Part shown: positions 5,079 through 62,364 of the stretch, piece after piece
Numbering within the stretch: the stretch's first letter is position 1
Layout of the letters: each line of letters opens with the position of its first letter
Assembly (NCBI RefSeq): GCF_002289565.1
Contig: NZ_NTFY01000067.1
Span: 1-64,000 of the forward strand
Length of the DNA: 64,000 bases
Direction of reading: 5' to 3'
Source of the DNA: Rhodopirellula sp. SM50
GTDB lineage: Bacteria > Planctomycetota > Planctomycetia > Pirellulales > Pirellulaceae
Made by a program: the position numbers and the translations under genes
Notes under the pieces: model-generated
Database searches by the model: none
Seen by the model: the letters and a program-made list of their open reading frames with translations, nothing else
What the model was told of the DNA's origin: nothing

Positions 5079-5642
5079 GTGGGATAGGCTTCCAGCCTGT
5101 CGATGCTGGGATGACAGGCTGGAAGCCTATCCCACTGTCTTCCCTTGTTGCCAGGCTCCGCCTGGCAACACATTGTCATGGAGGCTCCTGCCTCCTACCT
5201 GCCAGCCGCGTGTGGCGAGAGCCACATCGGCATTGCGTTGCAACGCGGAGCCATGGAACGAGCTGGTGTCGATGCTGGAATGACAGGCTGGAAGCCTATC
5301 CCACTGTCTTCCCTTGTTGCCAGGCTCCGCCTGGCAACACATTGTCATGGAGGCTCCTGCCTCCTACCTGCCAGCCGCGTGTGGCGAGAGCCACATCGGC
5401 ATTGCGTTGCAACGCGGAGCCATGGAACGAGCTGGTGTCGATGCTGGAATGACAGGCTGGAAGCCTATCCCACTGTCTTCCCTTGTTGCCAGGCTCCGCC
5501 TGGCAACACATTGTCATGGAGGCTCCTGCCTCCTACCTGCCAGCCGCGTGTGGCGAGAGCCACATCGGCATTGCGTTGCAACGCGGAGCCATGGAACGAG
5601 GTGGTGCCGATGCTGGGATGACAGGCTGGAAGCCTATCCCAC
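5079..5642. repeat. Composite repeat block: family A ends enclosing three 169-bp tandem units
   Basis: The block opens with GTGGGATAGGCTTCCAGCCT and closes with the inverted copy. Copies of GACAGGCTGGAAGCCTATCC begin at 5113, 5282, 5451 and 5620, which is an exact 169-bp period. Each unit contains CTTGTTGCCAGGCTCCGCCT and CATGGAGGCTCCTGCCTCCT. The units are almost identical. The open frames inside are repeat artefacts. A block with the same plan is at 61885-62364. Confidence 0.9.
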
Positions 5643-5720
5643 TGTCTGCATTGCGTTCCGGCGGAGCCTTGAAACGAGGTGAGGGGCATGCACAGCATGT
5701 CCTACGGCTATCCCACTATC

Positions 5721-7049: not shown

Positions 7050-9041
7050 TCAAATCGTTTGCAGCAAGCGAACCCAACGCAGCAGATCATCGATCTCCGT
7101 TTCGCCGCCCAGGGAGATGGGGTATCCGGCGGTCGCCAGCGGAGCCAGCCAGGTCGGGCCGTTGTCGAGTGACTCGATGGGCAACATGATTTCCAGGGCG
7201 CGATCGGGCTCGTTTTCACGCAGCCGAACGGCGGGGGGCTTGGCACTTGCCGAGACCGCGATGCCGGCAAAATTCTTTCGATCCGACAGCGCCATCGCGA
7301 TCACCATGGAATCGGCCGCCGAAGCCGGCGTGTCCTTGATCGCCCCGTTCGCCGCGACCGCGCTGACGAGGACAGGAACGCGCTGCGCCATCAGGGTGGC
7401 CATACGAGAGACGACGTCGATTTCTTTTTGTTGCCAACGCTGTTCATCTTCGCTGCAGACGGCGCAGACCACGACGCCGGCTTTTCCGGCTGCATCGCGC
7501 CAACCCTGCAATGCTTTTTGCGGGTCGCGGGTGTCCGGGGGTAGCAACAGCACCAGCAACGCCAGTCCGTCGTCGGCCGCCATCGCATCGGGTTTGGGGG
7601 CCACATAGGCGGCGAGGTTGGGGACATCGGGAAGCCGCAATTCCTGGACATCCCAAGGGTTTTCGGGCGGCTCGCCGGACCATTGATCGATCGTCTTTTT
7701 TAGTGTCGGTCCTGCGATCGGCGTGGGGGTCAATTTGATTTCCAACGGTTCCCCGTCCCGATCGATGGCCAGCGTCAGTTCTTCATCGGCGACCGCGGTG
7801 ATCATCGTCCGGCCGGCCGTTGCCACGTCCGTGATTTCGGTTTGGTCGATTTGTTTGATCACATCGCCGGGGTTCAATTTGCCGTCGGCGGCTGTGTCGG
7901 GGACGACGGCGCGGACGACCACCATGGACTGCTTCGGCGCCTCGTCGTTGGCGACCTCGGCGTCTTCTTCCGTCTCTTCGGTCAACCAGACACCCAGACG
8001 CAGCGGACTCAACGGAGGAATCGACTCGGCCAGGGTGACGCTGACGGTCCGTGTTTCGCCGTTTCGACGCAACGTGATCTCGATCGACTCGCCGGCATCA
8101 TAGGGGCCGAGGGCTTGTTTGATTTGCTGAAACATCCGCACGGGTTTTCCGCCGATGGCAACGACGGAGTCCCCGGGCTGGATACCGGATTTTTCCGCCG
8201 GGGATCGGCTGCGGACGGCTGCCAGTTCGGTGTCTTCGGCGTACGGGTCTTTGGCCTTGGGGACAATCCCGATCAGCCCCTTGCGGATGTCTTCTCCGGC
8301 ACGCAGACGCGTCAGTTTGTTTGCCAATACCGGCGAGGGGACGGCGAACGCGATTCCCGAGTCGTACCAACTGGTGTCGTCGGGCGCTCCGCCCTCGGCG
8401 ACCGCGGGGACCAGGACACCGATCACGTTTCCGTACAGATCGACCAAGGGGCCGCCGTAAAACGATGGGGAGACGCGCGCGTCGCTTTGCAACATCGTGC
8501 CTTCCAATCGGCCGGTGGCACTCAAGATGCCGCTGCTGACCATCGGCGATCGATCGCCGCCGTAGCGTCCGATGGCGACGACGGTTGACCCGATCGGCGT
8601 GTTCACCGCTTCGGCCAACTCGATCGGGACCAGGGGCGTTTTGGTATCGACCCGGAGCATCACCAGGCCGCGGTGATAGTCGCGAGCGACGAGGGTTGCG
8701 GCCAGTCGCGTCGCGTCGGGCAAGACGACCAAGATGCTGGCCGACGGCCGACGGACGATGATGTCCGATGCGACGACGTACCCATCTGCGTCAACGACAA
8801 TCCCACACGAGGGTGCGTCTTGAGCGACTTCGCTTTGCTGGTTCCCGCCGCCGGCCACTTCGGCCACTCCGATCACTTCGATAGAAACGATCGATGGCAA
8901 GACACGCTGGGCAGCGTTGCGGACCGCGCGGGCCATCGCTTGACGATACTCTGCGGTGTCGCTTTGTGCCGAGCAGAACGTGCTTGCGAGCAGACACGCC
9001 GTGATGACCGTGAAGCAGTAGACCGTTTTTAATTTCACCAC
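7050..9041 (-). CDS. HtrA-like PDZ protein with all catalytic residues replaced (pseudoprotease) and extra C-terminal domain
   Basis: A 663-residue exported protein, last gene of a four-gene operon; GTG start 11 bp after the previous stop. After a signal peptide (cleavage near CSAQ) comes a trypsin-like domain in the HtrA layout, but the triad is gone. The TNxHV position reads ASDIIV (His to Ile94), the D-L-A-V position reads HRGLVML (Asp to Gly125), and the GNSGGP position reads SPSFYGGPLV (Ser to Tyr195). Two PDZ-like domains follow, with SPAEKSGIQPGDSVVAIGGK and TAADGKLNPGDVIKQID. The last 190 residues form an additional alpha/beta domain not found in HtrA. It is probably a non-catalytic binding or regulatory partner of the intact protease at 10099-12006. 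Confidence 0.8.
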   Translation of the reverse strand: MVKLKTVYCFTVITACLLASTFCSAQSDTAEYRQAMARAVRNAAQRVLPSIVSIEVIGVAEVAGGGNQQSEVAQDAPSCGIVVDADGYVVASDIIVRRPSASILVVLPDATRLAATLVARDYHRGLVMLRVDTKTPLVPIELAEAVNTPIGSTVVAIGRYGGDRSPMVSSGILSATGRLEGTMLQSDARVSPSFYGGPLVDLYGNVIGVLVPAVAEGGAPDDTSWYDSGIAFAVPSPVLANKLTRLRAGEDIRKGLIGIVPKAKDPYAEDTELAAVRSRSPAEKSGIQPGDSVVAIGGKPVRMFQQIKQALGPYDAGESIEITLRRNGETRTVSVTLAESIPPLSPLRLGVWLTEETEEDAEVANDEAPKQSMVVVRAVVPDTAADGKLNPGDVIKQIDQTEITDVATAGRTMITAVADEELTLAIDRDGEPLEIKLTPTPIAGPTLKKTIDQWSGEPPENPWDVQELRLPDVPNLAAYVAPKPDAMAADDGLALLVLLLPPDTRDPQKALQGWRDAAGKAGVVVCAVCSEDEQRWQQKEIDVVSRMATLMAQRVPVLVSAVAANGAIKDTPASAADSMVIAMALSDRKNFAGIAVSASAKPPAVRLRENEPDRALEIMLPIESLDNGPTWLAPLATAGYPISLGGETEIDDLLRWVRLLQTI

Positions 9042-9052
9042 GCGGCGGGCTC

Positions 9053-10102
9053 CTAAGGTTGCAAACGAATCGGCAGCACTTCGTTGCCGCGTTGGATCGT
9101 GATCGACACGGCGTCGCGCCGATCGATCCGACGCAAAAGATCGATCAGGGTTTGTTGGTCACCGACACGCTGTCCTTCCAACAACAAGATCAAATCGTCT
9201 GGACGCAGTTTTGCATCGGCCGCCGGCGAGTCAGAGGCGACGGCATCGATGTAGGCCGGTGTGGATTCCAGGACGTTGGGCACAAGCACCAATCCCAGCG
9301 TCGTCAGGTTGTGCGACTGGTCCCGCCGCAGCACGGGGTTCTGTTCTTTGGGGACGGTCGTCGTGCGACCGGCGATGATGTCACCGAGTGCGGTTCGAAG
9401 CGCATCGATCGGCAAGGCATAGTTCAGCCAGACCCCGGTGCCGCTGTCGCGAAGCTCTTTCCCCAGCATGCCGATCAAGCGGCCCTCGCCATCGACAACC
9501 GCGCCGCCGGCGGCGCCGGGGTTGTTGGCGATCAAATCCAAGATCAGCACCTTGCCGCGGTACGGTGTCTTGAAGGTGCCGCGCCGCGCGTCCAGGTTGG
9601 TTACCGCGGCAATGGTGCCTTGCATCACACTGGCCGGTTCGTTGCCCGCGGCAATGTTGAACAGATTGCTGACGGCCAAGATGGGATCACCCCACTGGGC
9701 ATTGAGTTCCCTGTCGACTTCGAAGTACGGCAAATCGGAGGCGTCGACTTTCAAGACCGCCAGTTCCAGCGCGGGTTCGATCCCCACGATCGTGGATTCG
9801 AACCGGCGTCCGTCATCGAGCACCACGATCGGTTCGACGTCCAGCACATAGCTCCAGGCCGTCGCAATGTGGCCTTCCGGTGAAACCAGAAAACCGCTTT
9901 GGTAGGCCTCCAGCCCCTTGATTCCGCCGGCACCGTAAATCTTGACCACACGCTGTTGGACGTCACGCGCGCTCGGTGCAACGGGCGGTTGGGCCAACGC
10001 GTCGGCTGTGATCAGCAGGCAGGTGAGCAGGCTGGCCAGCAGGTAGGGCAGTCGGGGCAGTCGTGAGACGAGGGTTGGCGAGGGACGACGCAGGGACATC
10101 AT
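9053..10102 (-). CDS. HtrA-like PDZ protein lacking the catalytic triad (pseudoprotease)
   Basis: A 349-residue exported protein whose ATG overlaps the stop of the preceding protease gene (ATGA, 10099-10102). It has a signal peptide (LLASLLTCLLITADALAQ), a trypsin-like domain and one C-terminal PDZ domain (SPAADAKLRPDDLILLLEGQ). The overall HtrA pattern is easy to follow, but the catalytic His is replaced in TAWSYV (Ser84), the Asp is Glu113 in ALELAVLKV, and the nucleophile Ser is Ala198 in NNPGAAGGAV. The surrounding fold motifs are kept, so this is not decay into a pseudogene. It most likely binds peptides or assembles with the active paralogue encoded upstream. Confidence 0.8.
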   Translation of the reverse strand: MMSLRRPSPTLVSRLPRLPYLLASLLTCLLITADALAQPPVAPSARDVQQRVVKIYGAGGIKGLEAYQSGFLVSPEGHIATAWSYVLDVEPIVVLDDGRRFESTIVGIEPALELAVLKVDASDLPYFEVDRELNAQWGDPILAVSNLFNIAAGNEPASVMQGTIAAVTNLDARRGTFKTPYRGKVLILDLIANNPGAAGGAVVDGEGRLIGMLGKELRDSGTGVWLNYALPIDALRTALGDIIAGRTTTVPKEQNPVLRRDQSHNLTTLGLVLVPNVLESTPAYIDAVASDSPAADAKLRPDDLILLLEGQRVGDQQTLIDLLRRIDRRDAVSITIQRGNEVLPIRLQP

Positions 10103-12006
10103 GGCTGTGCGGTCTCCGTTTGCTTCCAGTCGCTGATCGAAACGTCCAGTGCGACGTCGGTTCCGTAACGCAATTCCAATCCGCTGATGCTCTCGCCCTC
10201 GCGACGGATCCAAAGTTCCGCCGGGTCCGAGTCGCGATCGGCGAACACTTCGACGCATTCGACCAAGCCGCTTTCGGGATGAGAAAGCCAACGCACTTCC
10301 ATGTCCCCGTACAGACCGATCATGCAATCGCGCAAGGGGCGTTCGCCGCCCAACGGCATCGTGCCTTGGTAGTAGGCCTCGCCGAACTTCTGGGGGCCGA
10401 GTTTCAACATGGTCCGCCAGGCATCCAGCGCGGGCAGGATCCCGGCGATCGAATCGGTGTCGACCGCATCGTACAATTCCGATCGTTTCGTCGCCTGCAT
10501 CGCCGTTTCACCGACCAGGATTGCAAACTGATCGTCGGCGACGCTGAGTTTGACCTCGGCCTCGCCGGTCTTGCCGGTGATCGTCCAGGCGGTGGAGTTC
10601 GATTCCGCATCGGCGGGAAATTGATCGGCGGGAAACTGGTTCCGCAGCGAGTCGATGAAACGATCCTGCTGGACTTGATTGAAGTGATAGTTGGCATATC
10701 CCCGGCGTGGGATGATCAGGTCGGAAACCGATTTGGGGATCGCCGGTTTCGCACCGCCGTGGGGTGATGGCGGCCGCGGCCGTTTTGGATCGGGCGGTTG
10801 AGGCGCCTCGTCATCGTTTTCGGTATCGTCTTGATTTTCCTCGGCGTTTTCTTCCGCATCTTTTTCGTCTTCCGGTTGATCTGGAACCGGCGGTGGGGGC
10901 GGCAGGGCCGAGGACATTTTGGCGAGCAGTTCGTCCTGGCGATGAACGCCCATCAATCGGACCGGGACGCGTTTGGTGATTCCGTCGTAGCGAAACGTGA
11001 CCGGGACGCGCCATCCACTGGGCAGGGTTCCCAGCACATTTTGAACATCGTTTGCGGTCATCACGGGACGGCCATCGATTTCCAGGATTTGGGCGTTGTA
11101 GCGAAGCCCGCGTCGGTACGCGTCACTGGATTCAAGAATGTTGCTGACGACGACTCCGCCATCGGGATCGGTCGTCACGGTCGCGCCGAGTGTGGCGTGG
11201 TCGACGATGCGGCCGCTGCGCAGATAGCCGAGGAAGTTTTTCGCCTGGTTGATGGAAATCGCATAACCGACTCCGACGTTGACACGTCCGCGTTTTTCGA
11301 ACGAGCACCGCCCGACGATGCCCAGCAATTCGCCTTGAGCGTTGTAGATCGGGCCGCCCGAGTTTCCGGGGTTGATCGACGCATCGGTCTGCAGGCAATC
11401 GGCATATTCCAGCAGCGTGCCGGAAGGATATTGGTAGCGCCCGACGCCGCTGAGGATTCCCCAGGTCACGGTGGGTTGAAGATTGGTCGCCAGCAGGAAC
11501 GGGTTGCCGATCACCATGCACCAGTCGCCGGCGCGGGCTTGTCGGCTGTCGGCCAGCGTGGCGTAGGGGAAATCGTCGCGTCCGAGCAGCTGGATCATCG
11601 CCAAGTCGCCGACCGGATCGAGTCCGACCAGGACGGCATCGTAGACGCGGCCGTCGCTCAATCCGCAACGCATGAACGTTCCGGCGGGGCTGGTGACGTG
11701 AAAGTTGGTCAGCGCGAAGCCGTCCGGCGAGATCAGAACGCCGCTCCCGCCGCCGCCGCCACCGGGCACAAACACACTGACGGCGCTGGGACGGGCACGA
11801 TCAATCGCCGCAACACGCGCCTGTTCGACCGACTGCAGCAGCGGATCCAATTCGAGGGGACCGGCGATCGAAACCGTCTCGGGTGCAGCGTCTTGCGCAT
11901 GCGACAGCGGTGCCGGGCAGAACGGTGTGATGGAAAACAGCGCCAACCACGACGCGGCGAATAGCGCGGCCGCTGGCGGCATTGGGTTGTTCACTCGTCG
12001 GCTCAC
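10099..12006 (-). CDS. HtrA/Deg-like trypsin-family serine protease with PDZ domain
   Basis: A 635-residue exported protease, second gene of the operon, with a GTG start overlapping the previous stop (GTGA, 12003-12006). It keeps the whole catalytic triad: His103 in LTNFHV, Asp134 in DPVGDLAMI and Ser216 in NPGNSGGPI. A PDZ domain follows (SDAYRRGLRYNAQILEIDGR). Next is an acidic, proline-rich linker (about residues 355-400) and a C-terminal region of roughly 230 residues of unknown fold. A signal peptide ends near SHAQD. By family it would degrade or refold damaged envelope proteins. It is the only member of this three-paralogue operon expected to be proteolytic. Confidence 0.85.
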   Translation of the reverse strand: MSRRVNNPMPPAAALFAASWLALFSITPFCPAPLSHAQDAAPETVSIAGPLELDPLLQSVEQARVAAIDRARPSAVSVFVPGGGGGGSGVLISPDGFALTNFHVTSPAGTFMRCGLSDGRVYDAVLVGLDPVGDLAMIQLLGRDDFPYATLADSRQARAGDWCMVIGNPFLLATNLQPTVTWGILSGVGRYQYPSGTLLEYADCLQTDASINPGNSGGPIYNAQGELLGIVGRCSFEKRGRVNVGVGYAISINQAKNFLGYLRSGRIVDHATLGATVTTDPDGGVVVSNILESSDAYRRGLRYNAQILEIDGRPVMTANDVQNVLGTLPSGWRVPVTFRYDGITKRVPVRLMGVHRQDELLAKMSSALPPPPPVPDQPEDEKDAEENAEENQDDTENDDEAPQPPDPKRPRPPSPHGGAKPAIPKSVSDLIIPRRGYANYHFNQVQQDRFIDSLRNQFPADQFPADAESNSTAWTITGKTGEAEVKLSVADDQFAILVGETAMQATKRSELYDAVDTDSIAGILPALDAWRTMLKLGPQKFGEAYYQGTMPLGGERPLRDCMIGLYGDMEVRWLSHPESGLVECVEVFADRDSDPAELWIRREGESISGLELRYGTDVALDVSISDWKQTETAQP

Positions 12007-13211
12007 TTGATCAACCTGGGTTTCAAGAATCGGACCTGGTCTCCGACGTCACCATCGTCGCCTGCCAAGGCTTCCAGCCGGACGCGGTTGGCACCCGCGA
12101 CCGGAACGCGAAATCCTTTGCTGCTTGAATCGGTCAGCGACTGTTCCCATTGCACTTGGCCATCGACGACCACGCGAACGATCACCGTGCCGCCTGCGGA
12201 GACAAGTTTATCTCGCCCGACGCTTCCGGCCAGCGTTTGGAATCCCGGCTCGACGCGATACTCGGCGTTTCCTCCGGCGACCATCACCAGATCCTCGCCC
12301 TCGGCCGCCGGTCCGAACCAATCGGTCATTAGGCTGGTCGGCAATTTCGTTTGCAGCAGGGGGGACACTCCGGTTGAGGCGGGGCTTTCACGCGCCAGCA
12401 TGACCCGACCGCTGGACCACGTGATGCGTTCGATCTGGTCCAACGCAATGCGATGGCGGACTTGGCCGGACAACAGAAATTCGATCGCGTCTGCCGCGTC
12501 GCTGGGTTCCAGACGGGCGACCAGAAACGTGGAACCATAGATGTCGCTGATCTTGACCGCTGCCCTCGCATCCGATGACGCAGCCGAGCGAAGAAAAACG
12601 CCCTCAAGGCGGTCTCGCGGCGCTTCGATTTTGTCTCCGTCGAGTTCAAAGAGCAGATTCTGCGGATCCAAGCCGACCACCACGCCTTCGATCGGATCGA
12701 GCTGGTCATTGCCGCGTCGAATCACCATCAAATCACTACGCTGCTCTTTGTCCTCCAAGCCGAACCATTGTGGATCGGTGGCCGGTCCGCCTTGACGAAA
12801 GCGGATCGAACGCACCTGGTTGATCGGAACATTGATTGTGGATTGACGCCGCGGTTCGATTTTGACCGTCGTGTCATCGATCGAAACGTCTTGCGCGAAG
12901 ATGGACGATCCGTTCGTCAGCGTGACGCTGATCGTCGGGCCGGCCGACGTCTCCTGCGGCGCAGACAGTTTCAGAGTGACGACCTGGTCGGCGGGTAGCT
13001 TTCGCACCGACGATCCGTCATTGAGTTGCAGCGACGAAGCGGTCGTCCCGGCCCATTGGCCGCTGACGATTTCACCCGAGCTCAATTCGATCTGCACCTC
13101 CGTCGCCTGAACATGGGATGCAAAGGCCGGAACCAGCAAGGCGGCGCCGAAGACTGCAGTGCCGATGACTGCGGCACACGAGATCGCGGGCAACCACGGA
13201 AAAAATTTCAT
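12003..13211 (-). CDS. Secreted NPCBM-domain protein with Sm-like beta repeats
   Basis: First gene of the operon that encodes the protease and its two inactive paralogues. The 402-residue product starts MKFFPWLPAISCAAVIGTAV and has a signal peptide to about residue 36. Three beta-rich modules begin VQIELSSGEIVSGQW, ISVTLTNGSSIFAQDV and IEGVVVGLDPQNLLFEL, each resembling small Sm-like barrels. The C-terminal 90 residues (YRVEPGFQTLAGSVG to the end) look like an NPCBM/NEW2 galactose-binding-type domain with VRLEALAG near the end. It probably binds a glycan or a protein in the envelope. Start at 13211 is chosen for the signal peptide. Confidence 0.75.
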   Translation of the reverse strand: MKFFPWLPAISCAAVIGTAVFGAALLVPAFASHVQATEVQIELSSGEIVSGQWAGTTASSLQLNDGSSVRKLPADQVVTLKLSAPQETSAGPTISVTLTNGSSIFAQDVSIDDTTVKIEPRRQSTINVPINQVRSIRFRQGGPATDPQWFGLEDKEQRSDLMVIRRGNDQLDPIEGVVVGLDPQNLLFELDGDKIEAPRDRLEGVFLRSAASSDARAAVKISDIYGSTFLVARLEPSDAADAIEFLLSGQVRHRIALDQIERITWSSGRVMLARESPASTGVSPLLQTKLPTSLMTDWFGPAAEGEDLVMVAGGNAEYRVEPGFQTLAGSVGRDKLVSAGGTVIVRVVVDGQVQWEQSLTDSSSKGFRVPVAGANRVRLEALAGDDGDVGDQVRFLKPRLIK

Positions 13212-23164: not shown

Positions 23165-26017
23165 ATGAATAGCTTTAGCTTGGACTACATCGACGATTTG
23201 TACGTCCAGTATATTCAGGATCCTGAGAGTGTCTCGGAGACCTGGCGGCAGTATTTTGAGCAGTTCATGGTGAGCTCTCCCGCAACGGCCAGGAAACGCA
23301 ACGCCGGCGTTTCACAAAGCCGTCGCGCGTCCGCATCGAAATCCGCTGCGGCCGGAACGTCCGCTGGCAAGTCCGGCGGAAACGGTTCCGCCCTGGCCCT
23401 CGCCGAACGCAGGGGGTCCACCGGTGACGAAGCGACCGATCAGGCACTGTGGATGTCGCGGATGCAAGACCGCGTCAACCAATTGGTCCGCGAGTATCGG
23501 GTCCGCGGACACCTCAAAGCCCAGCTCGATCCGTTGGGCATCGACCGCGGCGACCGGCCGGAGTTGAGCCCCCAACGCTACGGCCTCAGCGAAACCGACA
23601 TGCAGCGCCGCTTGGATTCCTCAGCGGTCGAGCACGTCAAGGGTGATACGCTTGACGTCATTTTGACGAAGCTTCGCAACACCTACTGTCGGTCGATCGG
23701 CGCGCAGTTCATGCACATCGACGATCGCAACATTCGCGATTGGTTGCAGCAGCGGATGGAGAGCACCGAGAATCGGCTGGACCTGCCTCACGAAACGCAG
23801 CGGCGGATCTACGCGCGGTTGGCCGACGCCTCGATCTTCGAAGAATTCGTGCGGCGTAAGTTTGTCGGCGCGAAAACGTTTTCACTCGAAGGTGCCGAAA
23901 CCCTGATCCCGCTGATCGACTTGGCGCTGGAGAAGGCGGGCGAGCACGGGGTGCAGGAAGTCGTCATGGGGATGGCTCATCGCGGTCGTTTGAACGTGAT
24001 GGCCAACATCCTCAAAAAACGCGCGATGAACATCTTCTGGTCCTTCGATGATCCCAATCCGGAACTCAGCCGCGGCGGCGGCGATGTCCGCTACCACTTG
24101 GGATACAGCAGCGACTGGAAAACCGCCCGGGGGGATCATCTCCACATCTCCTTGTGCTTTAACCCCAGCCATCTGGAATACGTCAACACGGTCGCGATGG
24201 GACGCACGCGTTGCAAGCAGGATCATCGGGGGGATACCGACCGGCGACAGGTGATGAATGTGCTGGTCCACGGCGATGCCGCGTTCGCCGGCGAAGGGGT
24301 CGTGCAAGAAACCTTGAACTTGAGCCAGTTGGACGGCTATCGCGTCGGCGGGACGCTGCACATCATCATCAACAACCAGGTCGGGTTCACGACCGAGCCG
24401 GAGCAAGGCCGCAGCACCACCTACGCGACCGACGTGGCGAAGATGCTGCAAATCCCGATCTTTCACGTCAACGGCGAAGACCCCGAGGCGGTCGCGCAAG
24501 TCGTCGCCTTGGCGATGGATTTCCGTAACGAATTCCAACGCGACGTCGTTATCGATCTGTACGCGTTTCGTCGTTGGGGACACAACGAAGGCGATGAGCC
24601 ACGGTTCACGCAGCCTCGCATGTACGCCGAAATCGATCGTCGCGCCGGCGTCCGCGAACAGTACCTCAATCGACTCAAGGCACTCGGGAAAATCTCCGAA
24701 GAGGAAGCCGAGGAAATTCAGAAGGAACGAACCGAGAAGTTGGAGTCGGAATTCGACGCCAGCAAGAATCACCAATTCGTCCCCGACACGCAAACGCTCG
24801 CCGCCGGTTGGAGTGACTACTTCGGCGGCCCCGAGCCGGTCGAGCCGACCGACACGACCTTCGACGAAACCCTGTTGGGCGAACTGGTCGACGCGGCGAC
24901 GCGGTTGCCCGAAGGGTTCGCACAACACAAAAAATTGAAGCGGTTGATCGCCAATCGTCGCGGGATGGCGGCCGGCGAAAAGCCGTTCGATTGGGCGACC
25001 GCGGAACTGGCCGCCTTCGCGACGCTGCTCTCACGCGGGCACGCGATCCGGCTGACCGGCCAAGATTGCCAACGCGGAACGTTCAGCCAACGGCATGCCG
25101 TTCAGCACGACGTCAAGACCGGCCAGACCTACATGCCGCTGGAGCACTTGGCCACCAACCAGGCACGCGTCGAACTGCACAATAGCCCGCTCAGCGAAGC
25201 CGGTGTGCTCGGATTCGAGTGGGGGTATTCGCTCGACGCGCCCGACAGCTTGGTGCTCTGGGAAGCCCAGTTCGGTGACTTTTGGAACTGTGCACAAGTC
25301 ATCGTCGATCAGTTCATCGCCAGCGCCGAAGACAAATGGAACCGACTGAGCGGTCTGGTGATGTTGTTGCCGCACGGGTTCGAGGGGCAAGGCCCCGAGC
25401 ACTGCAGCGCCCGGGTGGAACGGTTCTTGGCCATGACCGCCGAACACAACATCCAGGTCTGCCAGCCGACCACGCCGGCGCAATACTTTCACCTGCTGCG
25501 TCGTCAAGTGATTCGCAAGTGGCGAAAACCCTTGATCGTGCTGACCCCCAAGAGCCTGCTGCGACACCCCGAAGTGGTCAGCGATCGCAAGGTGCTTGCC
25601 GAAGGATCGTTCGAGCGAATCCTGAGCGACAAGGATGTGGATCTGTCGAAGGTCCGCCGCGTCATGCTGTGCACCGGAAAGATCTACTACGACTTGAAAA
25701 AGAGTCGCCAGGAACGCGAACTCGATGACGTGGCGCTTATTCGTCTGGAGCAACTTTATCCATTGGAAAGCGACGAATTGATCGCCGCCCTGGATGGAGT
25801 GCCCCGCAATGCCGAGATCTTCTTTGTCCAAGACGAACCGCGGAACATGGGAACCTGGCCTTACCTGAAGCTGAACTTCGGTGATGATTTTAATAGCGCC
25901 GGTTGGACGCTGGTTCCCATCACGCGCGCCGAGTCGGCCAGCCCCAGCACGGGAAGCATGGCGGCACACTTGATGGAACAAAAGGAACTGATCGAAGCCG
26001 CCTTCGCAGGGCTGTAG
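23165..26017 (+). CDS. sucA: 2-oxoglutarate dehydrogenase E1 component
   Basis: The thiamine-diphosphate-dependent decarboxylase subunit of the 2-oxoglutarate dehydrogenase complex in the TCA cycle. The 950-residue length is typical. The N terminus has the E2-interacting start (LDYIDDLYVQYIQDPESVSE) and a disordered basic linker. Family blocks include FSLEGAETLIPLIDLALEKA, GMAHRGRLNVMANILKK, HLGYSSDW, FNPSHLEYVNTVAMG, VHGDAAFAGEGVVQETLN, INNQVGFTT and RRWGHNEGDEPRFTQP. The E2 and E3 genes are not adjacent. A cluster of family B repeats begins 15 bp after the stop. Confidence 0.97.
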   Translation: MNSFSLDYIDDLYVQYIQDPESVSETWRQYFEQFMVSSPATARKRNAGVSQSRRASASKSAAAGTSAGKSGGNGSALALAERRGSTGDEATDQALWMSRMQDRVNQLVREYRVRGHLKAQLDPLGIDRGDRPELSPQRYGLSETDMQRRLDSSAVEHVKGDTLDVILTKLRNTYCRSIGAQFMHIDDRNIRDWLQQRMESTENRLDLPHETQRRIYARLADASIFEEFVRRKFVGAKTFSLEGAETLIPLIDLALEKAGEHGVQEVVMGMAHRGRLNVMANILKKRAMNIFWSFDDPNPELSRGGGDVRYHLGYSSDWKTARGDHLHISLCFNPSHLEYVNTVAMGRTRCKQDHRGDTDRRQVMNVLVHGDAAFAGEGVVQETLNLSQLDGYRVGGTLHIIINNQVGFTTEPEQGRSTTYATDVAKMLQIPIFHVNGEDPEAVAQVVALAMDFRNEFQRDVVIDLYAFRRWGHNEGDEPRFTQPRMYAEIDRRAGVREQYLNRLKALGKISEEEAEEIQKERTEKLESEFDASKNHQFVPDTQTLAAGWSDYFGGPEPVEPTDTTFDETLLGELVDAATRLPEGFAQHKKLKRLIANRRGMAAGEKPFDWATAELAAFATLLSRGHAIRLTGQDCQRGTFSQRHAVQHDVKTGQTYMPLEHLATNQARVELHNSPLSEAGVLGFEWGYSLDAPDSLVLWEAQFGDFWNCAQVIVDQFIASAEDKWNRLSGLVMLLPHGFEGQGPEHCSARVERFLAMTAEHNIQVCQPTTPAQYFHLLRRQVIRKWRKPLIVLTPKSLLRHPEVVSDRKVLAEGSFERILSDKDVDLSKVRRVMLCTGKIYYDLKKSRQERELDDVALIRLEQLYPLESDELIAALDGVPRNAEIFFVQDEPRNMGTWPYLKLNFGDDFNSAGWTLVPITRAESASPSTGSMAAHLMEQKELIEAAFAGL

Positions 26018-26031
26018 GCGAAGCCGCTTTT

Positions 26032-26211
26032 GTTAGCGGAACGGCGCGAGCCGTCCGGTCGAGCTGTAGGCGCGCCGCTTTTGTTAGCGGAACGGCGCGA
26101 GCCGTCCGGTCGAGCTGTCGACGCGCCGCTTTTGTTAGCGGAACGGCGCGAGCCGTCCGGTCGAGCTTCAAAACACTGTGAAAGACCGGAGGGCTCGCGC
26201 CCTGCCGCTAC
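26032..26211. repeat. Family B repeats: three 51-bp tandem left arms and one right arm
   Basis: TTAGCGGAACGGCGCGAGCC starts at 26033, 26084 and 26135, an exact 51-bp period, and is closed by AAAGACCGGAGGGCTCGCGC ending in CCGCTAC. One right arm can pair with any of the three left arms. The frames here that translate to LAERREPSG are repeat artefacts. The segment 26018-26362 holds no other gene. Confidence 0.85.
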
Positions 26212-32552: not shown

Positions 32553-33617
32553 ATGTTCACCCACGGAAACGAATCGCGACAGTCCGAAACCGACGCGGAG
32601 TCGTCTGATGCCCCGATTGCCGACCAGCGGGAACGGCGTGATTCCCCCTCGGCCGCCGGCCGGCCCCACACCGATCCCGAGGTCGCTCGCGGGCTGTTGG
32701 GGAAAATCGAGACGGTCCGGACGCAATTGCAGAGCGTGATCCGCGGCAAAGCGGACGTCATCGATTCGGTGCTGACTTGTATCCTGGCCGAAGGGTCGGT
32801 GCTGGTCGAGGATGTTCCCGGTGTCGGCAAGACCACGCTGGCCAAGTCCATCGCGGCGCTGATCGACTTGGATTTCCAGCGGATCCAGTGCACGCCCGAC
32901 CTGCTGCCATCGGATATCTTGGGCAGCGCCATTTTCCAACCCGCCAGCGGCGAGTTTCACTTTCGTCGCGGCCCGATTTTTTGCAACCTGTTGATCGCCG
33001 ACGAAATCAACCGCGCCTCGCCGCGAACCCAGAGCGCCCTGTTGGAGGCGATGGCAGAGTCCCAGGTCACGATCGATTCGACGCAGTATCGGTTGGAGAA
33101 ACCGTTTATCGTCATCGCGACTCAAAACCCGGTCGGATTTGAAGGGACCTATCCCCTGCCGGAATCGCAGCTGGATCGGTTCTTGTTCCGATTGTCGATG
33201 GATTACCCGGATCAAGAAAGCGAAATTGATTTGTTGCTCGACCAAGCATCGCATGACCCTTCGAGCGAGCTGACGCCGGTGATGCATCGTGACGACCTGG
33301 CGATGCTGCAGCGTTTTGTTCGCGAAGTCACGGTGGATCGAAAGGTGGTCCGCTATCTGGTGGCGCTGGTCAATGCGACCCGCCAGGACACGCGGTTGCG
33401 GGTCGGTTGCAGTCCTCGCGGATCAAAGATGTTGCTGCGCGCGGCACAGGCTCGGGCGGTGCTGGACCAACGCGATTACGTGTTGCCCGACGACATTCAA
33501 GAAGTCGCCGTCGCCGTGCTCGCCCACCGAGTCTCGATGCGCTCGGTGTCCACGTCGTGGAATGATGCGGCGTCGGTGATCGACGAGCTGATGCGGCAGA
33601 CGGAGGTGGTGGTGTGA
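32553..33617 (+). CDS. MoxR-family AAA ATPase
   Basis: A 354-residue AAA+ ATPase that probably acts as a chaperone for a partner with a von Willebrand or DUF58 domain. Walker A is PGVGKTTLAKSI (about residue 90). Walker B is LLIADEINRASPRTQSALLE, and sensor 1 is VIATQNPVGFEGTYPLPES. CTGGAGG sits five bases before the ATG. The stop overlaps the next gene by GTGA. The order MoxR, DUF58, transglutaminase is widespread in bacteria. Confidence 0.93.
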   Translation: MFTHGNESRQSETDAESSDAPIADQRERRDSPSAAGRPHTDPEVARGLLGKIETVRTQLQSVIRGKADVIDSVLTCILAEGSVLVEDVPGVGKTTLAKSIAALIDLDFQRIQCTPDLLPSDILGSAIFQPASGEFHFRRGPIFCNLLIADEINRASPRTQSALLEAMAESQVTIDSTQYRLEKPFIVIATQNPVGFEGTYPLPESQLDRFLFRLSMDYPDQESEIDLLLDQASHDPSSELTPVMHRDDLAMLQRFVREVTVDRKVVRYLVALVNATRQDTRLRVGCSPRGSKMLLRAAQARAVLDQRDYVLPDDIQEVAVAVLAHRVSMRSVSTSWNDAASVIDELMRQTEVVV

Positions 33618-46600: not shown

Positions 46601-46752
46601 TCGATTGTCCTTACGTTCGGATCGGCCGGCTCATTCGGGCCGGCTTTTGTCAGCCAGTGTGGACGGAGGACCCGTTGCCTCCGCGGAAAAGCTCATCGTA
46701 CATCCGCTCCCGGTCTTGGCACCAGGGCAGCGTGAAAAGCCGAAATTCAAAG

Positions 46753-46825
46753 CAGGAGTGGAGGGACTTGAACCCGCAACCGCTGGTTTTGGAAACCAGT
46801 GCTCTGCCAATTGAGCTACACTCCT
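46753..46825 (-). tRNA. tRNA-Trp (anticodon CCA)
   Basis: The minus strand folds as a cloverleaf: acceptor AGGAGTG with CACTCCT, D-arm GCTCAATTGGCAGAGC, anticodon stem CTGGT/ACCAG around TTCCAAA, and T-arm with GGTTCAAGTCC. The discriminator is G, as expected for tryptophan. CCA is not encoded. It lies between tuf and secE. Confidence 0.93.
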
Positions 46826-46869
46826 TCGCTGTGGCCGAACCGAAATCCGGCTTCGCGTAGTTTAAAGCA

Positions 46870-46906
46870 GAGAACCAACGAGCCGACAGACGGTTCGTTG
46901 GTTCTC
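46870..46906 (-). terminator. Hairpin downstream of tuf
   Basis: GAGAACCAACGA and TCGTTGGTTCTC form a perfect 12-bp inverted repeat with a 13-base loop, 60 bp after the tuf stop. On the minus strand it is followed only by TGCTTTAAA, so termination may be partial and allow read-through to tRNA-Trp. Confidence 0.5.
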
Positions 46907-46966
46907 GCGTTATTTTTCATCGAGTTTGGCGTGCCGAGCAGGTGCCAAACGGTCCCGATTCGGGGA

Positions 46967-48163
46967 CTACTCGACGATTTTGGTCACAACGCCCGAACCG
47001 ACCGTTCGGCCACCTTCGCGGATCGCGAAGCGGACGCCATCGTCCATGGCGATCGGCTTGTGCAGTTCGACGGTGACTTTGACGTTGTCGCCGGGCATGC
47101 ACATTTCCGCACCTTCCAGGTTGGCGGTGCCGGTCACGTCGGTGGTTCGGAAGTAGAACTGGGGACGGTAACCGCTGAAGAACGGGGTGTGTCGACCGCC
47201 TTCATCTTTGCTCAAGCAGTAAACTTCGGCTTCGAACTTGGTGTGCGGGGTAATCGAGCCCGGCTTGGCCAACACTTGGCCACGCTGGATTTCTTCACGC
47301 TTGATCCCACGGAGCAGGCAGCCGACGTTGTCTCCGGCACGACCTTCGGTCATTTCCTTGCGGAACATTTCGACGCCGGTGCAGGTCGTTTTGGCCGAGT
47401 TCGGGCCGAGGCCGACGATTTCGACTTCTTCGCCGACCTTGATGACGCCGCGCTCGATCCGACCGGTAGCGACCGTTCCACGACCTTCGATCGAGAACAC
47501 GTCTTCGATAGCCATCAAGAACGGCTTGTCGTCTTCGCGGACGGGCTCGGGGATGTATTCATCCAACGCTTCCATCAGCTCGGTGATGCACTTGCTGGCT
47601 TCCGCATCGCTGGGGTTGTTGTAGGCCGGCAGTGCCGATCCACGGATCACGGGGACGTCGTCGCCCGGGAAGTCGTACTTGCTGAGCAGTTCACGGGCTT
47701 CCAGTTCGACCAGTTCCAACAACTCTTCGTCGTCGACCAGGTCGCACTTGTTGAGGAAGATGACGATGTAAGGAACGCCGACCTGGCGAGCCAGGAGCAC
47801 GTGTTCCTTGGTTTGCGGCATCGGGCCGTCGGCGGCCGAAACCACCAGGATCGCACCGTCCATCTGGGCGGCACCGGTGATCATGTTCTTGACAAAGTCA
47901 GCGTGGCCCGGGCAGTCGATGTGGGCGTAGTGACGATTGTCCGATTCGTACTCGACGTGGGCGACCGCGATGGTCACCGTCTTAGTTGCGTCACGCACGG
48001 TACCGCCCTTGGCGATATCCGAATACCCCTTTGCCTGTGCCAAGCCTTTGGCGGCTTGGACTGCCAGGATTGCACCCGTCGTCGTTGTTTTACCGTGGTC
48101 AATGTGCCCAATCGTGCCGACGTTTACGTGGGGCTTGGTCCGTTCAAATGTTGCCTTGGCCAT
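46967..48163 (-). CDS. tuf: Elongation factor Tu
   Basis: The GTPase that delivers aminoacyl-tRNA to the ribosome. All G motifs are present in 398 residues: [21 protein letters not shown] and [10 protein letters not shown], with the start [20 protein letters not shown]. It lies downstream of four tRNA genes and upstream of tRNA-Trp and secE, the classical tRNA-tufB arrangement. The 342-bp leader between tRNA-Thr and tuf has no gene. Confidence 0.98.
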
Positions 48164-48577
<414 letters not shown>

Positions 48578-48586
48578 GACGCTCAG

Positions 48587-48657
48587 AGCGGGTGAAGGGA
48601 ATCGAACCCTCGTATTCAGCTTGGAAGGCTGCTGCACTACCATTGTGCTACACCCGC
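48587..48657 (-). tRNA. tRNA-Gly (anticodon TCC)
   Basis: Acceptor GCGGGTG with CACCCGC, anticodon loop TTCCAAG giving TCC, and T-arm GGTTCGATTCC on the minus strand. Nine bases separate it from tRNA-Thr. Confidence 0.93.
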
Positions 48658-48732
48658 TTGTCGTGCTCGGGGATCGTCCACCCCTCGGCACGGTTCTCAG
48701 ATTCGGAGATCGCGTCATCTCTCATCCTTCAG

Positions 48733-48814
48733 TGGGGGCTATTGGATTCGAACCAATGTAGGCGTAGCCAGCGGATTTACAGTCCGCCCCCTTTAACCAC
48801 TCGGGCAAACCCCC
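48733..48814 (-). tRNA. tRNA-Tyr (anticodon GTA)
   Basis: An 82-base class II tRNA: acceptor GGGGGTT with AGCCCCC, discriminator A, anticodon stem GCGGA/TCCGC around CTGTAAA, a long variable arm TGGCTACGCCTACA and T-arm GGTTCGAATCC. Confidence 0.93.
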
Positions 48815-48985
48815 TCAACGTTTATCTTGTTGTCTTGATCTTGTTGCTCGTCCGGTTCCTGTAAAAGCTGGTCTGGAGTGTTCGTCGCGAAGTTTGTCGT
48901 TTCGAGCCGTCAGTGGCAAGGTGGCCAGACGCTTCGGTTGGGAAGTACCAGGTTGTCGATGCCCAGGCCGGTGATCCCCTGCCAG

Positions 48986-49058
48986 AGCCAGCGGAGGGAT
49001 TCGAACCCACGACCGGCTGATTACAAATCAGCTGCTCTGCCAACTGAGCTACGCTGGC
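48986..49058 (-). tRNA. tRNA-Thr (anticodon TGT)
   Basis: Acceptor GCCAGCG with CGCTGGC, D-arm GCTCAGTTGGCAGAGC, anticodon stem GCTGA/TCAGC around TTTGTAA, T-arm GGTTCGAATCC. It is the first gene of the minus-strand tRNA-tuf cluster; its promoter should lie in 49059-49351. Confidence 0.93.
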
Positions 49059-53639: not shown

Positions 53640-53818
53640 TGCGTGGGGTAAGCATCTTGCTTGCCATTACGGCGGAAAACCAGGGCGATCGCAAGCTGGA
53701 AGCTTACGCCACTTTCGCAAGCTGGAAGCTTACGCCACTTTCGCAAGCTAGAAGCTTACGCCACTTTCGCAAGCTAGAAGCTTACGCCACTTTCGCAAGC
53801 TGGAAGCTTACGCCACTC
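53640..53818. repeat. Family C: five 26-bp tandem units plus a degenerate inverted copy
   Basis: GCAAGCTGGAAGCTTACGCC begins at 53691, 53717, 53743, 53769 and 53795, an exact 26-bp period. Two units carry CTAGAAG in place of CTGGAAG. A degenerate inverted copy precedes them near 53640-53665. Family C is a diverged form of family A. The block lies just downstream of the minus-strand DUF1501 gene. Confidence 0.9.
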
Positions 53819-61893: not shown

Positions 61894-62364
61894 GCTTCCA
61901 GCTTGCGACTTTTCCCTTGTTCCCGGGCTCCGCCTGGGAACACGATGCGATGGAGGCTCCCGCCTCCTACCCGCGCACCGCGTATGGCGTCACGGGCTGT
62001 CGATTTAGTGAGCCGCAACGCGTAAGCAGCCGGGCATTTCGGCGCCCGCCCGAGGCCTTACGGCCAGCGGCTCACCATTGACTCCGCAGGTCCCGATTAA
62101 ATTGACAAGCCGGTAAGCTTCCCTTGTTCCCGGGCTCCGCCTGGGAACACGATGCGATGGAGGCTCCCGCCTCCGACCGGCGCACCGCGTGTGGCGTCAC
62201 GGGCTGTCGATTTAGTGAGCCGCGACGCGTCAGCGGCCGGGCATTTCGGCGCCCGCCCGAGGCCTTACGGCCAGCGGCTCACCATTGACTCCGCAGATCT
62301 GGATTAAATCGACAAGCTGGTAAGCTTCCTGATTGCCTCCACGCAAGCTGGAAGCTTACGCCAC
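61885..62364. repeat. Composite repeat block: family C ends enclosing two 207-bp-spaced units
   Basis: The left end GTGGCGTAAGCTTCCAGCTT and the right end AAGCTGGAAGCTTACGCCAC are inverted copies. Two near-identical units start with CCCTTGTTCCCGGGCTCCGC at 61914 and 62121. Each contains CGATGGAGGCTCCCGCCTCC and a palindromic half (GTGAGCCG to CGGCTCAC). The first 75 bp of the units are homologous to the 169-bp unit at 5113-5619. Confidence 0.9.

Follow-up and report, generated by a model that had tools for sequence, protein, structure and literature searches.

Operon layout and domain composition

In a 64,000-nucleotide stretch of the genome of Rhodopirellula sp. SM50 (assembly GCF_002289565.1, contig NZ_NTFY01000067.1, positions 1 to 64,000; hereafter the window), four minus-strand genes form an operon in the order N-A-B-C. 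They encode an NPCBM protein (N), an intact HtrA (A) and two HtrA paralogues predicted to be catalytically dead (B and C; A, B and C together are called the trio). The genes are as tightly coupled as a preliminary description of this DNA had stated: N and A overlap by GTGA, A and B overlap by ATGA, and B and C are spaced by 11 bp. The genes, their domains and the catalytic positions are as follows.

12003..13211, minus strand: N; ATG start at 13211; C-terminal NPCBM/NEW2 domain (Pfam NPCBM, 42.4 bits, cut-off 23.9)
10099..12006, minus strand: A, HtrA-type; Trypsin_2 (105.5 bits), PDZ, proline-rich linker and C-terminal domain; GTG start inside the stop of N
11317..11748, minus strand: trypsin domain of A; His103 at 11698-11700, Asp134 at 11605-11607, Ser216 at 11359-11361
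10102..10731, minus strand: C-terminal domain of A, without a Pfam family above cut-off
9053..10102, minus strand: B, predicted pseudoprotease; Trypsin_2 (75.9 bits) and one PDZ; ATG start overlapping the stop of A
9467..9898, minus strand: predicted dead trypsin domain of B; Ser84 at 9851-9853, Glu113 at 9764-9766, Ala198 at 9509-9511; oxyanion glycine kept
7050..9041, minus strand: C; Trypsin_2 (71.7 bits), PDZ_2 in two stretches and a hydrolase-like tail; GTG start 11 bp past B
8415..8804, minus strand: predicted dead trypsin domain of C; Ile94 at 8760-8762, Gly125 at 8667-8669, Tyr195 at 8457-8459; oxyanion glycine lost
7053..7724 (approximate bounds), minus strand: alpha/beta-hydrolase-like tail of C (feruloyl-esterase / PHB-depolymerase type), without a GxSxG nucleophile

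All three members of the trio carry Trypsin_2 and a PDZ family above the curated Pfam cut-offs. Aligned to one common profile, their catalytic sites are occupied by His-Asp-Ser (A), Ser-Glu-Ala (B) and Ile-Gly-Tyr (C), which confirms the residues that the preliminary description had assigned to these sites. A has the elements by which HtrA/Deg proteases are recognized in sequence, namely a trypsin-like domain with His-Asp-Ser and a C-terminal PDZ domain; the NCBIfam cut-offs for DegP, DegQ and DegS were reached by none of A, B and C. The AlphaFold model of A (mean predicted local distance difference test score (pLDDT) 84.5, predicted template modelling score (pTM) 0.81) had the DegP trimer 8f0a as its top Foldseek match, the query being a single-chain model, and the top structural match of the C model (mean pLDDT 89.4, pTM 0.78) was DegP 3otp. 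Judged by eye, the N-termini of N, A, B and C all resemble cleavable signal peptides.

Catalytic residues across Planctomycetota

When 40 genomes at the level of the order, including that of the window, were searched for B, 39 matched at an E value of 1.1e-78 or better. Forty regions from 38 other genomes, two of which contain a diverged second copy, were combined with the window into a set of 41 loci, which with few exceptions belong to the window's order. In this sample, the catalytic sites of A were occupied by His and Asp in 39/39 rows with a residue in each case and by Ser in 41/41. At the corresponding positions, B had Ser (39/41), Glu (34/41) and Ala (37/41), and C had Phe or Ile (34/39), a variable residue at the Asp site and Tyr at the nucleophile (38/39).

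The comparison was extended to a phylum set of 161 loci, consisting of the order loci, 40 further loci from the class and the phylum, and 80 named collection loci. The latter were retained from a total of 265 confirmed relatives, include Stieleria, Rhodopirellula, Rubripirellula, Blastopirellula and numerous metagenome-assembled genomes (MAGs), and are nearly all labelled planctomycete, with one MAG labelled Nealsonbacteria and one labelled just bacterium. Removal of loci with identical B ends (last 150 residues) left 149 non-identical loci, among which close relatives remain and which are phylogenetically non-independent; they span several classes of Planctomycetota, the class and family labels serving as kinship tags. 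Of 73 named sequences each, 63 entered the alignment for C and 62 that for A; two other alignments have 24 and 26 rows, and the tail alignments comprise 13 C tails and 29 A tails.

Throughout these loci, A was His-Asp-Ser in 141 of 147 copies. The other six, 180-517 aa long, have no aligned residue at one or more sites, and every A copy with residues at all three sites is His-Asp-Ser; the aligned histidine is doubtful in locus L221, and A is split over two frames in L195. Two or three catalytic residues were retained in none of the 149 B and none of the 143 C sequences. The histidine site of B was occupied by Ser, Asn, Gly, Gln or Thr in 147/149 and by His in the remaining two. Two B copies from other classes, L217 and L218, retain a His, and their other two sites are Gly and Gln. 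Ser occurred at the nucleophile site of B in 1/149 (L091, a diverged second copy). In C, the histidine site was Phe, Ile, Trp and others, and the nucleophile site was Tyr in 142/143 and Val in 1/143. At the second position ahead of the nucleophile, the oxyanion glycine was found in 144/144 A, 149/149 B and 3/143 C. The same catalytic states were seen in 11 unlinked genes from seven genomes. An alternative catalytic triad in B or C was also considered, and none was present at the aligned sites. By these residues, B is a predicted dead protease with its substrate loop retained, and C is a predicted dead protease with a rebuilt pocket.

The diverged second copies of the module (L090, G016:C143; L091, G032:C12) have a short C and B states of GQA and GQS.

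Selection and origin of the degenerate paralogues

Purifying selection acts on A, B and C alike. Compared with 13 same-genus orthologues, the ratio of nonsynonymous to synonymous substitution rates (dN/dS) in pairs with dS<1 was 0.105-0.171 for A (5 pairs), 0.146-0.270 for B (6 pairs) and 0.113-0.152 for C (5 pairs), most of the 13 pairs per gene having a saturated dS and the B coding regions including an upstream extension that overlaps A. Over all pairs, the values reached 0.189 for A, 0.270 for B (one pair not computable) and 0.276 for C. Those of N were higher (0.153-0.420, all computable pairs).

In a maximum-likelihood tree of 80 domains, sampled from 24 of the 161 loci and from 8 of 9 other HtrAs tried from the window's genome, A, B and C formed one clade each with a support of 100/100. 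Both catalytic losses are therefore most simply older than the sampled diversification. An internal stop was found in just one B (G151) among the matches listed. Fourteen listed A matches cross one stop, which in the four compared (G102, G094, G200 and G053) is the gene's own end. That B and C are selected pseudoproteases and not decaying copies, as had been proposed from the window sequence, is thus supported by dN/dS values like those of A, by replacement residues fixed in the 149 loci and by the single clade of each.

Co-retention, linkage and fusion

Gene content was surveyed by profile searches, with a threshold of E <= 1e-40 for B and thresholds above the generic HtrA background for A and C. 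Matches to the B profile were present in 161 of the 198 class genomes and in 43 of the 195 genomes of the phylum sample, 17 of those 43 lying outside the class. Among the 198 class genomes, A was found in 160, B in 161 and C in 160; when the lists were compared by eye, 159 genomes had all three genes and 37 had none above threshold. The two partial genomes are drafts of 380 contigs (G209, without A) and 300 contigs (G203, without C). Of the 37 genomes without the trio, 20 were listed, and 17 of these belong to family f21, from which no genome appears among the matches listed.

Gene order in the 161 loci was N-A-B-C (131), N-A-B-C with an A-B fusion (5), A-B-C (17), N-A-B (6) or B-C (2), and no other order was seen, in agreement with the expectation of a conserved layout. 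A, B and C were always on the same strand, and gaps of more than 300 bp, as measured from the longest frame, separated 1 of 142 A-B pairs and 4 of 143 B-C pairs. When all 17 loci from other classes and 23 more were retrieved, A, B and C stood together in 38 of the 40, C not being there in L190 and L197. In G028, G109 and G200, C lies away from B but is present elsewhere in the genome. In the one-contig genomes G059 and G167, distances of at least 130 kb separate the three genes, and all of them are kept, with His-Asp-Ser in A, Ser-Asp-Gly in B and Phe-x-Tyr in C. Furthermore, 5 of the 17 other-class loci have A fused to B, with A first, in a single open reading frame of 858-1126 aa. An N orthologue was detected in 131 of the 149 non-identical loci.

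Together, the co-retention and the A-B fusions favour a functional, probably physical, coupling of A and B. The partnership of A, B and C suspected from the operon structure thus gains support from their co-occurrence, their joint absence and the fusion of A with B.

Additional domains in C and A

A profile of the C tail, built from 13 orthologues, matches LC-Est1C (3wyd, E 3.2e-13), feruloyl esterases and a PHB-depolymerase family esterase, and Pfam Abhydrolase_2 was found in 3 of the 13 tails (best 1.5e-5). In the alignment, the esterase motif GHSMGG stands opposite GrqaGG. A G.S.G motif occurs in 2 of 127 C tails (L150 and L202), the window's C tail being without it; this motif count was used because an insertion misaligns the tail nucleophile column in the window's close relatives. 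No tail match was obtained in 28 of 155 C sequences (not de-duplicated), of which 16 come from other classes. Wherever the tail is present, C is, as far as its motifs predict, a double pseudoenzyme in which a dead trypsin domain is joined to a dead esterase-like domain.

The C-terminal domain of A had no Pfam family above cut-off and no match to a Protein Data Bank (PDB) profile better than E 0.27 in a search with 29 orthologous tails. DUF4292 was considered for this domain and rejected, since it stayed below threshold and appeared in 7 of the 29 tails, and the domain was left unnamed. With the full models of A and C, the top 50 Foldseek matches were all HtrA-type proteins, so that the tails of A and C were not named by that search.

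An upstream MoxR-DUF58-BatA-vWA neighbourhood

A conserved gene of approximately 360 codons, UP0, ends directly upstream of N in 85 of the 149 loci, and it has an overlapping frame in 3 more. It is absent in 40 despite at least 1.3 kb of covered sequence; 3 loci have too little sequence, and N was not found in 18. Except for L146, L170 and L209, the loci without UP0 (undeduplicated list) are relatives of the window, namely Stieleria, Rhodopirellula, Rubripirellula, Roseiconus, Roseimaritima and their kin.

Twelve upstream regions, picked by hand and not at random, were examined further. Seven of them contain, in this order and all on the operon strand, genes for a squalene-cyclase-like protein, MoxR, DUF58, BatA, vWA, UP2, UP1 and UP0; these seven comprise three loci of the order, two of other families of the class and two of other classes. 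Other frames intervene within the upstream cluster in L234 and L235. Pfam identified the domains in L228 and L230 and gave no match there for UP2, UP1 and UP0 (L230:11963-18663 and L228:363-5518); many planctomycetes have these three conserved genes between vWA and N. A stretch of collagen-like repeats occurs in the UP1 copy of L191.

The genome of the window has MoxR, DUF58, BatA, vWA, UP2, UP1 and UP0 grouped on contig C59, the end of which comes 570 bp past UP0, and N-A-B-C lies inside contig C111. The MoxR of this cluster is 74% identical to that of L228. The best reading of the window operon is that it was once the 3' module of a MoxR/BatA cluster and has been split off. The dead esterase-like domain of C and the link to MoxR/BatA are new additions to what had been described for this DNA, the cluster lying outside the window.

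A further MoxR-type gene in the window (32673-33602, plus strand) is 40% identical to the MoxR of the cluster and is one of 16 matches in the genome.

Comparison with known systems

With HtrA, DegP, DegQ and DegS, A shares the fold, the domain order and the triad, and the protease and PDZ part of C matches DegP and DegQ structures. The trio differs from these proteases in that B and C are without catalytic residues and A has one PDZ domain and an extra C-terminal domain. In plant chloroplasts, two HtrA paralogues of one compartment, Deg5 and Deg8, are said to act as a hetero-oligomer; we know of no dead third partner in that system.

The closest precedent that we found, judged by analogy, is MamE/MamO (and MamE1/MamE2). 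MamE is the active HtrA of magnetosomes, and MamE-dependent proteolysis needs MamO but not the triad of MamO, whose dead protease domain also binds metal; independent inactivations among magnetotactic bacteria are described as well (PMC4794232). This precedent corrects the preliminary description, which knew of no described system with this layout: as worded, the statement was wrong, since MamE/MamO pairs an active HtrA with a dead paralogue, though with one dead partner (PMC4794232). Both systems combine an intact HtrA with a dead trypsin-like paralogue that is kept by selection in one gene cluster. However, MamE/MamO has its one dead partner in the magnetosome island, whereas the trio has two, each of one clade and spread over the phylum. 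MamO has a TauE domain and, at position 193, a residue other than glycine, whereas B keeps the oxyanion glycine and C has a fixed Tyr. The trio further differs from what that source covers in the dead esterase-like domain that C has in most of the class and in its MoxR/BatA neighbourhood. None of A, B and C scored above 110 bits with the NCBIfam models of MamE and MamO, the cut-offs of which are 800. By their sequences, A, B and C thus appear to be of the MamE/MamO kind without being members of that system.

The upstream genes resemble Bat or MoxR-vWA operons (PMC3557215, PMC5700661, to the extent of their accessible text), with MoxR, DUF58, BatA and vWA on the same strand in 7 of 12 trio loci. 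To these, the trio clusters add the HtrA trio, the NPCBM protein and UP0-UP2, which do not appear in the titles and abstract openings on Bat operons. MoxR-vWA ternary conflict systems, which have VMAP, iSTAND, FtsH or a beta-propeller as third component (PMC7159879), share the pair of MoxR and vWA with the trio clusters, and the bpMoxR profile matches the trio-cluster MoxR with 40-43 bits. A conflict-system reading of the neighbourhood was set aside, as AAA_3 scores 214 bits, DUF58 and BatA genes come next and the whole looks like Bat. In the titles and abstract openings that one open-access library gave for the terms used, we found no description of a layout with one live and two dead HtrAs.

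A model for the trio and its alternatives

HtrA proteases are trimers in which the protomers communicate via PDZ and loop contacts, as in DegS and DegP. Against this background, we consider it rather probable that B and C assemble with A and control it as non-catalytic partner subunits maintained by selection. N-A-B-C would then be a module that reaches deep into the phylum and, to judge from its signal peptides, is exported, with A as the sole predicted catalytic subunit. B and C may join the HtrA trimer layer of A or dock on it, and their PDZ domains and inter-protomer loop contacts would present ligands or partners that activate or aim A. Having retained its oxyanion loop, B could hold a peptide uncut. 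In C, the Tyr at the nucleophile site and the missing oxyanion glycine suggest that the pocket is probably closed, and C would act as a structural or docking subunit. Considering that the module is encoded with the MoxR-DUF58-BatA-vWA cluster in several lineages, it may serve envelope-side partners of that cluster, with A probably processing or quality-controlling the proteins which that machine remodels. N and the predicted dead esterase fold of C may contribute carbohydrate or surface binding.

The presence of three paralogues, of which one is live, suggests an A:B:C trimer, and the A-B fusions and the co-retention would be in keeping with it. In the most specific version of this model, A, B and C would form an obligate 1:1:1 heterotrimer that has just one active site, with B as sensor of uncut peptides and C as Tyr-plugged docking subunit, forming the periplasmic protease arm of a MoxR-BatA-vWA machine. 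In all these particulars together, the version is rather doubtful, and a looser arrangement, in which B and C stay outside the trimer and serve as adaptors or activators, would fit the data equally well.

Several observations weigh against the partner-subunit model or parts of it. The genes are unlinked in some genomes, which indicates that co-translation is not needed, and G018 has a C stretch alone, with no A or B above threshold. The listed absences of the trio are concentrated in few lineages. Many of the 18 loci in which N was not found are short, but L065, L088, L207, L212 and L214 span 13.5-14 kb. Of the 17 other-class loci, 16 have a C without a match to the hydrolase-like tail, so this domain is not essential to the module. 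In the tree, the branching of A, B and C among each other and among other HtrAs was not resolved, and another HtrA falls among them. As for the MoxR link, it consists of gene neighbourhood, which is broken in the window's own lineage, and 5 of the 12 upstream loci have UP0 plus UP1, UP2 or vWA alone.

A serious, though less probable, explanation is that the dead HtrAs B and C each do a non-catalytic job of their own within one pathway with A, for example as a chaperone, a peptide- or metal-binding scaffold or a client adaptor, with no mixed oligomer or gating. It would suit the genomes that keep all three genes unlinked and the greater change in the pocket of C than in that of B, the oxyanion glycine being lost in 140/143 C; metal binding by the dead domain of MamO, in addition to its activation of MamE, provides a parallel (PMC4794232). 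However, the A-B fusions in 5 of the 17 other-class loci suggest contact between A and B, and the near-perfect co-occurrence of the three genes also speaks against it. If, instead, co-occurrence reflected vertical inheritance of a long syntenic block with non-interacting products, then an old and mostly linked block would be expected, as is seen, and the concentration of 17 of the 20 listed absences in f21 may mean that few loss events occurred. This explanation is nevertheless very unlikely, given that G059 and G167 keep all three genes at distances of at least 130 kb from one another, with B and C dead, and that A and B are fused elsewhere.

Activity of B or C through other residues, such as a shifted histidine or the Tyr of C, seems scarcely credible. 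The near invariance of this Tyr (142/143) and the oxyanion loop kept in B would agree with it, but no B or C has two of the three residues, the histidine site is replaced in 147/149 B, and C combines Phe, Ile, Trp or others at that site with a missing oxyanion glycine in 140/143. To our knowledge, there is no Tyr nucleophile in the trypsin-like fold, which also counts against an active C. Decay of B and C as duplicates, finally, we regard as practically out of the question: the lost catalytic residues themselves, and nothing further, point to it, whereas the dN/dS values are close to those of A, the replacement residues are fixed, each protein forms one clade and a single internal stop (in B of G151) was seen among the matches listed.

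Pseudoproteases that regulate a live protease are known mostly from animals, as in the case of iRhom, and, by the literature cited above, from magnetosomes. The planctomycete trio consists of one live and two predicted dead HtrAs that are co-inherited through much of a bacterial phylum, the replacement residue of C being itself fixed. A role of dead subunits in HtrA assemblies thereby becomes testable in Stieleria, Rhodopirellula and Blastopirellula, and the MoxR/BatA-type cluster gains a candidate proteolytic partner.

Other features of the window and its genome

The window's genome contains a second tandem of an active and a degenerate HtrA (L012, G000:C127:61982-62389; L018, 62896-63990), in which a protein with His-Asp-Ser lies beside one whose catalytic sites, as aligned in pieces, read Ser, Asp and Cys (VLSPNQCGGPL). 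The degenerate member had a match in 14 of 14 same-genus genomes, its own included, and in 6 of 11 others.

Within the window, positions 5098-5647 hold a tandem array with a 169-bp unit in 3.3 copies (98% matches), and further tandem arrays lie at 26011-26167, 53689-53817 and 61912-62329. Five tRNA genes (Trp, Thr, Gly, Tyr and Thr) are located at 46752-49058 on the minus strand.

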